A stretch of 64,000 nt of DNA from Empedobacter brevis NBRC 14943 = ATCC 43319 (GTDB lineage Bacteria > Bacteroidota > Bacteroidia > Flavobacteriales > Weeksellaceae). Shown here one piece after another: positions 8,319 through 12,730 of this stretch (its first letter is position 1; every line of letters starts with the position of its first letter). Both the position numbers and the translations under genes were made by a program. The stretch lies in contig NZ_KB908302.1 of NCBI RefSeq assembly GCF_000382425.1, forward strand, positions 1-64,000, given 5' to 3'. The notes under the pieces are model-generated. The model was not told the origin of the DNA. It saw only the letters and a list, made by a program, of their open reading frames with translations, and searched no databases.

Positions 8319-8546
8319 TTACTTTTTCGTTCTATACTTTTTCGGATTTTTTTTAAATTCTGTTTTGCAGTTACTGCTACAGAAACCGTAAATCTTCTTC
8401 TGGTAAACGGCAGTGTCTTTTAGAAACTGAGCTGTATTCATACCACAAACAGGATCTTTTTCATTAACGACTTTTACCTTTGATTTTTGTTGAGCAAATG
8501 TTGTCAATGAAATGATTATCATGATTAAGGAGATTATTTTTTTCAT
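8319..8546 (-). CDS. secreted YHS-domain protein
   Basis: 75 residues: a signal peptide of about 18 residues (MKKIISLIMIIISLTTFA) and then a single YHS/TRASH-like zinc ribbon. The metal motif is DPVCGM (about 31-36) and then FCSSNCKTEF (about 55-64), which together provide the cysteines. YHS domains occur in copper and heavy-metal handling proteins and bind a metal ion. It is the last gene of the leftward MbnP/MbnH operon, 20 bases after the barrel-type protein, and probably works in the periplasm. Confidence 0.8.
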   Translation of the reverse strand: MKKIISLIMIIISLTTFAQQKSKVKVVNEKDPVCGMNTAQFLKDTAVYQKKIYGFCSSNCKTEFKKNPKKYRTKK

Positions 8547-8566
8547 TGTTGTTGATTTTTTTAGTT

Positions 8567-9517
8567 TTAAAATAAGCTATAATTTACGAAAAATCCAATT
8601 CGGTTTTTCACTTCAATTTCACCGGAGTTCAAATTCGAATGCAGAGGTTGAAAATATTCTACACCAAAATTAAATCGTTTGGCAGCGGCTTCCAATCCGA
8701 TTTTAGCAAATTGGGCATCACCTTTTGATTTTGGAATTGCTTCTCCAAACTGTTCATTTTCGAAGTAAAGTTCGTTTTGAAAACCAACTTTTCCAACCAA
8801 TTTGAATTCATTGTTTATAAAAAGTTGCTGCAATTGAATCAATTGGTTCCATTGATCCCCAAACTTATATTTCTTTTTATTCTCTCCTTTCAGATTATAG
8901 TCTGTGACCACTTGTAAGGCCGTATTTTTATAAGCCAATTGATAATTTAGAGCAAATTGTGTGTCCCAGCTTCCTGTTCCTAGCTGAAAACTTGGATTGG
9001 TGGTTTCAGCATTTGTTTGATCAAATTTAGCGATAGGAATTTTTAAACCAACTGCCGCGCTTAATCCATGTTTAAATTTATTTGTATCTTGAGTAGGTTT
9101 GACAAGCTTGACAACACCCATTACATTTAAATCTCCAATTCCCGAAATAGAAGTTGAGTTTTTGCCATCTTTTTGATGGAAATGATACGGAATGCTGGCA
9201 TTGACGTCTATTCTGTTATGTACAGGGATTCTTGCCCACAATTGAATTGTATTGAATTGCTGCTTTTGTGTTCTTTTATTGGAAAAAGCATCTTCTTTTG
9301 CTTTATAATATTGATGCAGATAGCGAACACCAATAAAGTTCGAGTTTAAAAGATTTTCAATTCCATTAGAAGCAGATGTAGCTGAACAGCCACAAGCATC
9401 GCAGTCTAATTCTACTTCCTGAAAATAAGGAGAGCTAATAGAATCGTGATCAGTATGTGCCAAAAGTAGAATGGGACTAAAAAATAGGACTAAAAATAAT
9501 GTTTGATATAATTTCAT
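8567..9517 (-). CDS. predicted outer-membrane beta-barrel protein of the copper operon
   Basis: 316 residues from the ATG at 9517, which directly precedes a good signal peptide (MKLYQTLFLVLFFSPILLLA). A second ATG at 9541 would overlap the upstream gene by 14 bases. The mature N-terminus has a His/Asp part and the motif CDACGC, a likely metal ligand. The rest alternates polar and apolar residues and ends in FFVNYSLF, with a terminal Phe typical of outer-membrane barrels. It follows the MbnH-like gene and precedes the YHS gene. I do not know the substrate; a copper or metal-chelate role is inferred from context. Confidence 0.62.
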   Translation of the reverse strand: MKLYQTLFLVLFFSPILLLAHTDHDSISSPYFQEVELDCDACGCSATSASNGIENLLNSNFIGVRYLHQYYKAKEDAFSNKRTQKQQFNTIQLWARIPVHNRIDVNASIPYHFHQKDGKNSTSISGIGDLNVMGVVKLVKPTQDTNKFKHGLSAAVGLKIPIAKFDQTNAETTNPSFQLGTGSWDTQFALNYQLAYKNTALQVVTDYNLKGENKKKYKFGDQWNQLIQLQQLFINNEFKLVGKVGFQNELYFENEQFGEAIPKSKGDAQFAKIGLEAAAKRFNFGVEYFQPLHSNLNSGEIEVKNRIGFFVNYSLF

Positions 9518-9527
9518 TAGAATAGAT

Positions 9528-10568
9528 TTAAAACTCTGCATAAGCAGGGTTATGAATAAATGTATAATCGGTCAGTGTTTTCAGAAAAGCTATAATGGCC
9601 TTTTTTTCTTGATCGGTCATAGGAATTCCTCTTTGTCCATTTTGTTTCAAGAGAGGATCCAGTCGTTTATCATTTTGTACATTGTCCGAATAAAAATTCA
9701 AGACAGCTTCTAAACTGTAGAAGCGTCCATCATGCATATAAGGTTTAGTCATCTCAATATTTCGTAAACTAGGAACCCGAAATTTCATGAAATCAGCTGA
9801 ATCCAGGGTCACACGATATAGCCCACCATCTTTGTATTGCTTGTCGTAATACATTCCGGTATTTCGAAAAGATTCGTCAGTAAAAAGTGCTCCCTGATGA
9901 CAGCTAGAACATTTTTGCTGGAAAAGTTGCATTCCTGTTTTTTCAAGTGTAGTCAAATCAGCTTCTTTTCGAACATATTGATCGTACTTGGCATCTTTTG
10001 AAACGACAGAAGCCATAAATTGTCCCAATGCACTGAGGATCCGATTGGCATTAATCGATTCGTCACCGAATGCATTTTTAAACATTTTTCGATAATTAGA
10101 ATCGCCTGAAAGTTTTTTGATGATTTCAGGAAAGGTGGTGTCCATTTCCTCTTCTGCTGTAATAGGCGAAATAGGCTGTTGAGCTAAATCGTGTATCACG
10201 CCATCCCACATATATCGATTTAAGAAAGCCAGATTTTGAATCGGAGGTGCATTTCGAATTCCTATTCTGTCCTCAATTCCATGACTCACAGTATGGCCAT
10301 GATGCGTAAAAGCATTTTCCTGAATGTGACAAAACGCACACGAAATGGTATTGTTACGGGACAATCGGCCTTCGTAAAACAGTTTTCTACCTAGCTCTAC
10401 TCCATTTTTTGTAAGCGGATATTTTTCGGTATCAAATGTCATTTTCGGAAAGTAAGAGGGTATGTCTAATTGATAAGGTTCATCAATGATTTTTCCATAA
10501 TCAATCTCATCATCATTGCAACTTGACAAGATGAATAAACTGAATAGAATGAGTATGATTTTGTTCAT
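9528..10568 (-). CDS. di-heme MbnH/MauG-type peroxidase-like lipoprotein
   Basis: 346 residues. The lipobox LSSC has its Cys at 17. Two c-type heme sites are present: CAFCH (C77, C80, H81) and CSSCH (C220, C223, H224). This is the cytochrome-c peroxidase/MauG fold. It lies 42 bases after the gene for an MbnP-family protein. In known MbnP/MbnH pairs the di-heme enzyme oxidises a tryptophan of its partner to kynurenine, which helps bind copper. The role here is inferred from that pairing; a plain peroxidase is the alternative. It acts in the periplasm. Confidence 0.82.
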   Translation of the reverse strand: MNKIILILFSLFILSSCNDDEIDYGKIIDEPYQLDIPSYFPKMTFDTEKYPLTKNGVELGRKLFYEGRLSRNNTISCAFCHIQENAFTHHGHTVSHGIEDRIGIRNAPPIQNLAFLNRYMWDGVIHDLAQQPISPITAEEEMDTTFPEIIKKLSGDSNYRKMFKNAFGDESINANRILSALGQFMASVVSKDAKYDQYVRKEADLTTLEKTGMQLFQQKCSSCHQGALFTDESFRNTGMYYDKQYKDGGLYRVTLDSADFMKFRVPSLRNIEMTKPYMHDGRFYSLEAVLNFYSDNVQNDKRLDPLLKQNGQRGIPMTDQEKKAIIAFLKTLTDYTFIHNPAYAEF

Positions 10569-10610
10569 TTTGCATGGAATTAAGCGGTGTTTGGATAAAC
10601 ACCGCTAAGA

Positions 10611-11453
10611 TTAGTTTATGGTTTCATTATTATGTACATGATCGACACGAAACATTTTTTGCATATTGTCTGTTACCAATTGAGCAAAACCTGAAGATCC
10701 CATTACATTGTTGGTCGACTTATCCAGTGTTAATTTATTGACTCCGCTTAAATAAGTGTTCAAGTTTGCCATGATATGAATTGAAGGTTTGATTTTAGAA
10801 GTAACTCGTGCAGATGTTGGTAAATCAAGGGTAACTTCTCTGTAAAGATCCGGTACTTCGTTTTTACTGATATCTCCCATATTACCTGTATGAGTCAAGA
10901 AAAAATTATCGGTTGTATTTGTTACATAGAAACCTTCAAGTTTTATAAAAACATAACCGGCAGCCCATGACCAGGTTAATCCACTTCTTTTCGCCTTTTC
11001 CCAAAATGTAGCTTGTCCGGTATGGCCTAATAAATAGGCTTTTTGCGATACACCAATCCCAAACCTCACTTTGGTATATTTATTTTGAGGAATATTTTCC
11101 AAATCTAAGTAGACAACATTGGCTACTGCAGAATCCTGATCAACAACAAAAGCTCCTTTATCAGGATCGTTTTTGTGATAATCAAATTCATTTCCTTTTT
11201 CGTCTATTAGTGTAATGTTAGAAATAATATATTTTAACGTTGTGAATTTATGCTTTTGTCCGTTTGATGAGGTCTGAGTGGTTTGGTCTAATACAATACC
11301 TCCCAAATTATCGAATCCATTCTCAAATTTTAACTGAATTTTTCCTGGTTCAGAAGTATTGATTTCTGAAAAGTCGTCATCATTGTTACATGAAGTAAGT
11401 AAAGTGAACAGTGCAATAAATGAGAAATTGATAAAATATTTAATTGTTTTCAT
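10611..11453 (-). CDS. MbnP-family copper-binding lipoprotein
   Basis: The open frame reaches 11597, but the ATG at 11453 starts a lipoprotein signal (MKTIKYFINFSFIALF, then LTSC), so 280 residues are annotated. The core has the family mark GLTWSWAAGY (about residues 169-178), then FIKLEGF, with tryptophans that could be modified by the neighbouring di-heme enzyme. Histidines cluster at the C-terminus (DHVHNN). MbnP/CorA-type proteins hold copper at the cell surface. The gene sits between two small Cys-motif membrane proteins and MbnH, all in one direction. Confidence 0.82.
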   Translation of the reverse strand: MKTIKYFINFSFIALFTLLTSCNNDDDFSEINTSEPGKIQLKFENGFDNLGGIVLDQTTQTSSNGQKHKFTTLKYIISNITLIDEKGNEFDYHKNDPDKGAFVVDQDSAVANVVYLDLENIPQNKYTKVRFGIGVSQKAYLLGHTGQATFWEKAKRSGLTWSWAAGYVFIKLEGFYVTNTTDNFFLTHTGNMGDISKNEVPDLYREVTLDLPTSARVTSKIKPSIHIMANLNTYLSGVNKLTLDKSTNNVMGSSGFAQLVTDNMQKMFRVDHVHNNETIN

Positions 11454-11536
11454 TGTGATAAATTGTTTAATTTTTTTGAATAAAAATGCTGTTGAAAAAC
11501 ATTCATTGTTTTTCAATACAAGTACTGTCGTTAAGA

Positions 11537-11908
11537 TTAAACAATTGGAGGTTTCAATTGTTTGAAGACCCAATTGATGGAATAGGTCGAATGCCAAAAG
11601 AATCTATGTTTGATTTGTACAGTAAAATCCAGGATAAATGGTATGCTAAAACATTCGAAATACAGACAATTTTCTGCAAACCGGATATTTTTTATTAAAA
11701 GCTGATGAGATTGTTGTTCAGTTTCTTTTAATTGTTTAGATAAATAACATTTTCCATTACATTGCATTTCAGGACGTTCTTTATTGATACAGTATTCATC
11801 AACGATTCTCTCTTGTGTACTGATAAACACAGTAAAAGGAATCAATGAGCGAAAACCAATTAAAAGCACGAACAATGCAATCAACAAACAATTGATACTT
11901 TTGAGCAT
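11537..11908 (-). CDS. small Cys-triad membrane protein, copy B
   Basis: An upstream TTG at 11926 is open, but the ATG at 11908 begins a clean helix (MLKSINCLLIALFVLLIG), giving 123 residues. After the helix comes RSLIP, then EYCINKERPEMQCNGKCYL, that is C-X9-C-X3-C. The following part is not recognisable until the end, FKQLKPPIV. The same motif and tail occur in the gene directly upstream (11975-12337), so the two are a tandem duplication. It precedes MbnP in the operon. A role as a membrane-anchored metal ligand is inferred, not shown. Confidence 0.7.
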   Translation of the reverse strand: MLKSINCLLIALFVLLIGFRSLIPFTVFISTQERIVDEYCINKERPEMQCNGKCYLSKQLKETEQQSHQLLIKNIRFAENCLYFECFSIPFILDFTVQIKHRFFWHSTYSINWVFKQLKPPIV

Positions 11909-11974
11909 TCGTATATAGAATGTCAAATCGATTATATGTTAGTGATACATGATAGTTTGATAAAAAAGAATTGT

Positions 11975-12337
11975 TTATCCGATTGGAGGTTGTAGTTGTT
12001 GTTTCAACTGATATTGAGGATTGAGGTTTAACTGGAATGTAGAAACCTTTTTAATAAATGATAAAAATACAGGTTCATTAATTTCAAGAGAAGATTGATA
12101 AATGAAGTAATCAATTGAACGCAGTGTAATAGGAATTTGATCGTTTCGATTGTCGTCCACCGTTTTTGAAACTTGTTCTGTTAAATAGCAGAAACCATTA
12201 CACATCAATTCAGGACGCTCTAGATTGATACAATATTCATTTGAAATCCGATCATAATTTACCAAATAGTCGACTACCGGTAGCAAAGGTCTACATGTAA
12301 TTAGTACGACGGTTAATATGAATAGGAAAGATTTCAA
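11975..12337 (-). CDS. small Cys-triad membrane protein, copy A
   Basis: 120 residues. The frame begins with TTG at 12337-12335. There is no in-frame ATG between the upstream stop and the helix, so a TTG start is likely. An N-terminal helix (SFLFILTVVLITCR) precedes EYCINLERPELMCNGFCYL, the same C-X9-C-X3-C pattern as in copy B. The C-terminus QLKQQLQPPIG also matches copy B. It heads the leftward MbnP/MbnH operon. I see no named family. The conserved cysteines suggest binding of a metal or of a disulfide partner on the periplasmic face. Confidence 0.66.
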   Translation of the reverse strand: MKSFLFILTVVLITCRPLLPVVDYLVNYDRISNEYCINLERPELMCNGFCYLTEQVSKTVDDNRNDQIPITLRSIDYFIYQSSLEINEPVFLSFIKKVSTFQLNLNPQYQLKQQLQPPIG

Positions 12338-12553: not shown

Positions 12554-12667
12554 ATGGCAAATTATATCGACATATACAGAAGAAACAACCAATCGTGGTT
12601 GCTTTTGTCGTTAGCCTATTTACATGATGATACTTTCTTAAGAAGCTCGAAAGAGTTTATCAAGTAG
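12554..12667 (+). CDS. possible 37-residue small protein
   Basis: A short frame from ATG at 12554 to TAG at 12665-12667. The protein reads MANYIDIYRRNNQSW then LLLSLAYLHDD and ends in KEFIK. It is not strongly hydrophobic. A TAnnTTTG promoter lies 24 bases upstream and a hairpin follows at once, so the layout is that of a small gene. A second ATG at 12547 opens a different 26-codon frame over the same DNA. Coding status cannot be proved here. Confidence 0.45.
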   Translation: MANYIDIYRRNNQSWLLLSLAYLHDDTFLRSSKEFIK

Positions 12668-12692
12668 TCCCTGTTACGATCCAAGACAGGGA
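12668..12692 (+). terminator. weak terminator-like hairpin
   Basis: TCCCTGT at 12668-12674 pairs with ACAGGGA at 12686-12692 around an 11-base loop. A T-rich stretch follows eight bases later, so termination may be partial. Confidence 0.4.
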
Positions 12693-12730
12693 ACCTCCGT
12701 TTTATTTCAATTATCAATTATTTTCAACTT

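Follow-up and report, generated by a model that had tools for sequence, protein, structure and literature searches.

In Bordetella, CruR is a 145-residue open reading frame (ORF) with a CXXC motif and a RAPP sequence three residues from its end; mutations of RAPP abolish expression of the next gene, mutations of the cysteines abolish copper control, and the control acts through Rho-dependent termination (PMC9426467). Arrest of CruR at RAPP was demonstrated in vitro (PMC12992588), and CruR homologues head operons with genes for OprC-type receptors, PepSY_TM, Sco and MbnPH (PMC9426467). CutF of Rhodobacter capsulatus combines a CxxxC motif with a PP at its C-terminus; it acts in cis, its sign being opposite to that of CruR, and a rule-based list of CutF-like genes consists of 19-40% Bacteroidota, depending on the normalisation (PMC9973294). 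Among kynurenine-copper systems, corAB of Methylomicrobium is copper-repressed (PMC3912023). Here we analysed the first 64,000 nucleotides of contig NZ_KB908302.1 of Empedobacter brevis NBRC 14943 (hereafter the window), in which an operon coding for the copper protein MbnP and the di-heme enzyme MbnH starts with two small three-Cys proteins, for which the best reading is that of tandem copper-sensing upstream ORFs.

Small protein 1 (11975..12337, minus strand) has 120 aa, a TTG start, a hydrophobic N-terminus, the motif C36-x9-C46-x3-C50 and the C-terminus ...QPPIG. Small protein 2 (11537..11926, minus strand) has 129 aa, C46-x9-C56-x3-C60 and the C-terminus ...KPPIV. Their Pro-Pro codons (11984..11989 and 11546..11551 respectively, minus strand) stand two residues ahead of the stop and are the proposed arrest sites. 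Both belong to a family of about 120 aa with C-x9-C-x3-C, a hydrophobic N-terminus and an almost invariant C-terminal [H/R/K/Q]-Pro-Pro; the proteins of relatives begin at the same codon as small protein 1. In a 33-sequence alignment of the family, the only columns without variation are those of the C-terminal Pro-Pro, the three Cys, an Asn and a Gly. PP was found within the last 12 residues of 248 of 250 unique small proteins and of 10 of 1859 neighbouring proteins (all of at least 100 aa), lying in most small proteins exactly two residues ahead of the stop and following H, R, K or Q in 238 of the 248; the full pattern [HRKQ]PPxx-stop was present in 187/250 small proteins and in none of the 1859 neighbours. 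The distance from CxxxC to PP is 64-71 residues in 242/248 members, across an intervening sequence that is poorly conserved. No single codon pair is preferred for PP, so the signal lies in the protein. When the window was compared with other Empedobacter, both small ORFs were under purifying selection (dN 0.10-0.22 vs dS 0.8-1.7). The AlphaFold2 model, listed for small protein 2, has a hydrophobic N-terminal helix and confident helices at the N-terminus only, with pLDDT >80 over the first 40 residues and <50 at 75-109. Searches of Pfam and NCBIfam returned for the small proteins a single match, to a T-antigen domain (E 0.048), which was below the cut-off and was rejected as chance.

This build resembles that of CruR (a DUF2946 protein in Bordetella pertussis) in several respects: a small ORF of exported type in first place, a conserved Cys motif, a C-terminal PP within a few residues of the stop, a conserved Cys-to-PP spacing, little confident structure past the N-terminus (as reported for CruR), a long gap to the next gene and the same kinds of copper genes downstream. 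With CutF the small family shares CxxxC and, following in the same orientation, a copper gene, which is a multicopper oxidase there and MbnP in the window. The window small proteins also fall within the rules of the CutF-like list on length, PP position and next gene (<150 aa, PP <=15 residues from the C-terminus, next gene on the same strand at <1000 nt), so that the family was probably counted in that survey (PMC9973294).

The neighbourhood was then compared across relatives. Among 80 MbnP loci from named Flavobacteriia, MbnH directly follows MbnP in all 80, the barrel gene is present in 76, and a small ORF lies directly before MbnP in 73 and upstream of it in 78. The corresponding figures for 40 MbnP loci of the host family are 39 (MbnH directly after), 30 (barrel next), 31 (small ORF directly before) and 36 (small ORF upstream). 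The order on which the original prediction depended is thus kept, and its recurrence in both sets of loci, together with the purifying selection on the small ORFs, argues that the arrangement is not chance. The gap between small ORF and MbnP has a median of 141 nt, with -8 nt between MbnP and MbnH and 6 nt between MbnH and barrel. In a wider sample of 296 Bacteroidota genomes, the small family was present in 117, and 56 genomes had both MbnP and the small family, which is above chance (Fisher p 4e-17, uncorrected for relatedness). A small ORF was found just upstream in 41 of 98 MbnP places in these genomes, 37 of them outside the host family; since the other 57 places were without one, the association, though strong, is not universal. 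On two plasmid-borne MbnPH loci that were examined, no small ORF was annotated directly before mbnP.

Copper genes also adjoin relatives of the small proteins where MbnP is absent from the next position, in agreement with the copper setting that had been proposed for the locus. The gene following a small ORF (n=250) was MbnP in 107 cases, YHS in 74, an OprC-like receptor in 17, another small ORF in 13, a YtkA-like lipoprotein in 10 and another TonB receptor in 10; the barrel gene is also among those directly following, and some of the other receptors are accompanied by PepSY_TM. The OprC-like receptors match OprC structures and TIGR01778 (below its cut-off), and carry the OprC motifs CxxxM (25/28) and HxM (27/28). 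Three loci run in the order small ORF, YtkA-like lipoprotein, OprC-like receptor, MbnP, MbnH. Chryseobacterium-type loci have the order small ORF, YHS, SCO1, Fe/Mn superoxide dismutase, small ORF, MbnP, MbnH, barrel, and a YHS-SCO1 pair at another site of the E. brevis genome is headed by a third small ORF. We also observed six loci in which small ORFs head a second type of TonB receptor, without CxxxM, together with PepSY_TM proteins; these operons resemble the CrtA/BfrG copper operon of Bordetella. In three further loci, the small ORF is followed by an exported protein of 138-141 aa that contains stretches rich in His and Met and is possibly another copper protein.

By analogy with CruR and CutF, we consider it probable that the small proteins are cis-acting leaders of the CruR/CutF type, which stall at their terminal Pro-Pro and control the copper genes downstream. 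The operon would then serve envelope copper handling (MbnP, MbnH, the CDACGC channel and the YHS protein) under two tandem copper-sensing upstream ORFs. Each small protein would be translated and, through its hydrophobic N-terminus, targeted to the envelope; on reaching the C-terminal [H/R/K/Q]-Pro-Pro, with two codons left before the stop, the ribosome would tend to stall. At the stall, the three-Cys site would stand 64-71 residues from Pro-Pro, outside the exit tunnel; this distance, which exceeds the 45 of CruR, would place the site outside the ribosome, possibly at the periplasmic face. Copper bound to the nascent chain would alter the stall and, acting by way of the long untranslated stretch ahead of mbnP, set the expression of mbnP-mbnH-barrel-yhs. 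The likelier sign would be that low copper allows the stall and turns the operon on, and that copper prevents the stall and turns it off; this copper-off sign is somewhat favoured, by analogy with CruR and from copper-repressed corAB, and is uncertain. A bolder version would have the small proteins form a Bacteroidota arrest-peptide family that is not homologous to CruR, with the three-Cys site read periplasmically during the pause of the ribosome on the terminal Pro-Pro, controlling MbnPH, OprC-like receptor, SCO1 and PepSY genes as one copper switch across the phylum, and with tandem copies working in a two-step or cascaded manner; we hold this only tentatively.

Small protein 2 and MbnP are separated by a gap that contains a hairpin, TTGAAAAACA-ATGAA-TGTTTTTCAA (11492..11516, minus strand), 38 nt upstream of the MbnP ATG. 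Among 64 non-redundant gaps of this kind, 34 have a hairpin with its 3' end 30-46 nt upstream of the MbnP start, compared with 7.3 (sd 2.4) in shuffles; with a simpler choice of start codon the figures are 27/62 vs 7.8, and for other same-strand gaps 30/150 vs 18. Stem sequences vary among species. A role as intrinsic terminator or as Shine-Dalgarno mask was considered and rejected, the hairpins having no consistent U-tract and lying 30-46 nt from the ATG. Unlike in CutF, the window hairpin gives no visible cover of the Shine-Dalgarno sequence, and because hairpins of this type are anchored at the MbnP start, they are no simple copy of the CutF arrangement.

Several points weigh against leaders of the CruR/CutF type. 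The small proteins had no Pfam match to DUF2946 (PF11162), no DUF2946 match was found in the E. brevis genome, and hhalign of the small family against Bacteroidota DUF2946-like ORFs gave a probability of 0.1%; for want of a profile match, we call the small proteins CruR/CutF-like in build and proposed action, and not members of DUF2946. Their motifs also differ from those of CruR (CxxxC plus a third Cys vs CXXC, [HRKQ]PP vs RAPP). EF-P may relieve stalls at sequences of the [HRK]PP type. In the Chryseobacterium-type loci the second small ORF is inside a longer run instead of heading it, and the hairpin position is tied to the MbnP start and not to the small ORF stop. We found no expression or ribosome data for the small family. 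The pair itself scores below the curated NCBIfam cut-offs: MbnP reaches 35 bits with TIGR04052, whose equivalog cut-off is 140 bits, and the di-heme protein reaches 235 bits (E 1.1e-69) with TIGR04039, "MbnH family di-heme enzyme", whose cut-off is 362.85. Judged by these scores, the window MbnP is an MbnP-family relative and not the WxW equivalog as NCBIfam curates it. Further differences from CruR are the spacing (64-71 vs 45), the tandem copies and the phylum. Separately from the small family, we noticed four Bacteroidota DUF2946-like ORFs with CxxC, a C-terminal R[AG]PP and a spacing of 43-47, as in CruR.

The small proteins could instead be membrane-anchored copper chaperones or assembly factors that hand Cu(I) to MbnP or SCO1, the Pro-Pro being structural or a sorting signal. 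The hydrophobic N-terminus, the three invariant Cys, the nearly constant adjacency of copper proteins and the purifying selection would all suit such a role; we nevertheless find it unlikely, as conservation is limited to the Cys and to a PP at a fixed distance from the stop, joined by a poorly conserved linker of nearly constant length with little confident structure in the AlphaFold2 model, and as a separate copy stands directly before each sub-operon, ahead of a long untranslated gap, in a pattern that matches known leader ORFs. A different alternative keeps the leader and reverses its sign, copper strengthening the stall and turning the operon on as a detoxification response, as the CxxxC and PP shared with CutF, the 64-71 spacing that, in line with a proposal made for CutF, could bring the Cys site close to the periplasmic side, and the CutF-like genes reported from Bacteroidota would allow. 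This is rather doubtful in view of the uptake-type genes (OprC-like receptors) found downstream elsewhere in the small family and of the copper repression of corAB (PMC3912023).

A third alternative concerns the enzyme, which might be an ordinary cytochrome c peroxidase that never modifies MbnP. The di-heme lipoprotein (9528..10568, minus strand; 346 aa) does belong to the same superfamily, matching CCP_MauG at 1.1e-53, and bacterial peroxidases are its next best structural relatives; its best solved relative, however, is the di-heme enzyme 6e1c, and Tyr293, at the MauG/MbnH axial position, aligns with a Tyr of 6e1c where the peroxidase 3o5c has Met. Both CXXCH haem sites, at 77-81 and 220-224 (C77, C80, H81, C220, C223, H224), are kept in 27/27 aligned MbnHs, and the axial Tyr in 23 of these 27. 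With the strict adjacency to MbnP in 80/80 loci and an invariant WxW in the partner, a mere peroxidase appears very improbable. In a subtype of MbnH seen in four loci, SFGQF replaces HDGRF and the axial Tyr gives way to Leu or Phe, the preceding residue being a Tyr; the MbnPs partnered with this subtype are without the C-terminal DHVHN, and the arrangement with an OprC-like receptor occurs at three of the four loci.

MbnP itself (10611..11453, minus strand) is a 280-aa lipoprotein with the lipobox LTSC, which matches Pfam PF20243 at 6.8e-35 and 121 bits, over a gathering score of 27. Its WxW motif, W161-S-W163 (10965..10973, minus strand), is invariant across 30 aligned MbnPs. A phmmer search of MbnP against the PDB gave nothing meaningful, and the MbnP profile reaches the solved MbnP-like 7l6g weakly (E 0.015), aligned at the same WxW and the following His. 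MbnPs of the barrel-type subgroup carry a C-terminal MFxVDHVHN motif. At position 159, the window MbnP has Leu (GLTWSW, 10965-10979), shared with one other species, where nearly all relatives and 7l6g have Met (GMxWxW). The domain matches, WxW and the MauG-type Tyr bear out the earlier assignment of an MbnP lipoprotein followed by a di-heme MauG-type enzyme, and WxW, two CXXCH sites and the axial Tyr together give the pair the parts for Trp-to-kynurenine oxidation. By analogy with the methanotroph systems, MbnH would oxidise the first Trp of WxW, the expected kynurenine, and so create a Cu(I) site; we infer likewise that the operon responds to copper. Like MbnP/MbnH, CorA/CorB and MopE/SACCP of methanotrophs (PMC3621798, PMC3912023), the window couples a copper protein with a candidate kynurenine Trp to an adjacent MauG-like di-heme enzyme; it differs from methanotroph MbnP/MbnH in its distant sequence, in having no adjacent methanobactin genes and in the MFxVDHVHN motif of the barrel-type subgroup.

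The two genes that follow probably contribute further copper ligands, through the CDACGC motif of the barrel and through the YHS protein. The barrel (8567..9517, minus strand) is, by its structural model, an outer-membrane channel of the COG4313/FapF type, having the same fold as 4rl8 and 5o65 (TM-scores of about 0.55-0.75), and one of its relatives matches PF13557. Its N-terminal CDACGC sets it apart from those channels, and C39, D40, C42, G43 and C44 are invariant in 26 relatives. We know of no copper role for COG4313/FapF channels. The last gene (8319..8546, minus strand) codes for an exported YHS-domain protein (PF04945, 2.1e-10).

All six ORFs of the predicted leftward run, with its two C-X9-C-X3-C proteins, CDACGC barrel and YHS protein, were confirmed as one minus-strand run (window 12337-8319). 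The view that the two small Cys proteins are additional membrane partners with no described role is probably mistaken, for in build and gene setting they are like leaders of the CruR/CutF type, whose role is described in Proteobacteria. The general leader idea is already known, and surveys had counted CutF-like genes in Bacteroidota and noted MbnPH behind CruR; what is new is the detailed link between small ORF and MbnPH in Bacteroidota, along with the tandem form and with a motif and a spacing that are distinct. We found no experimental test of CruR/CutF-type leaders in Bacteroidota in the literature. To our knowledge, copper control in this phylum is poorly known. If the leader reading is true, a single small-ORF family that has no name as yet flags operons under copper regulation throughout the phylum and offers a way into their control, which would need no classical regulator; kynurenine-copper proteins become tied to OprC-like copper uptake, the extra Cys-rich proteins beside MbnPH are explained, and a further case of metal-gated ribosome stalling is added, with the motif [HRK]PP at the very C-terminus, unlike RAPP.

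The operon ends at a terminator-like hairpin followed by a T-rich stretch (8282-8257, minus strand), beyond which lies a convergent Crp-type gene. It is the only MbnP locus in the E. brevis genome, and its closest named relatives by MbnP are in Empedobacter stercoris, tilapiae and falsenii (85-86% identity). Upstream of the operon, a noncoding block at window 12560-12720, for which Rfam gave no match at gathering and only chance-like ones below it, contains inverted repeats and is conserved in four Empedobacter species, between divergent genes.

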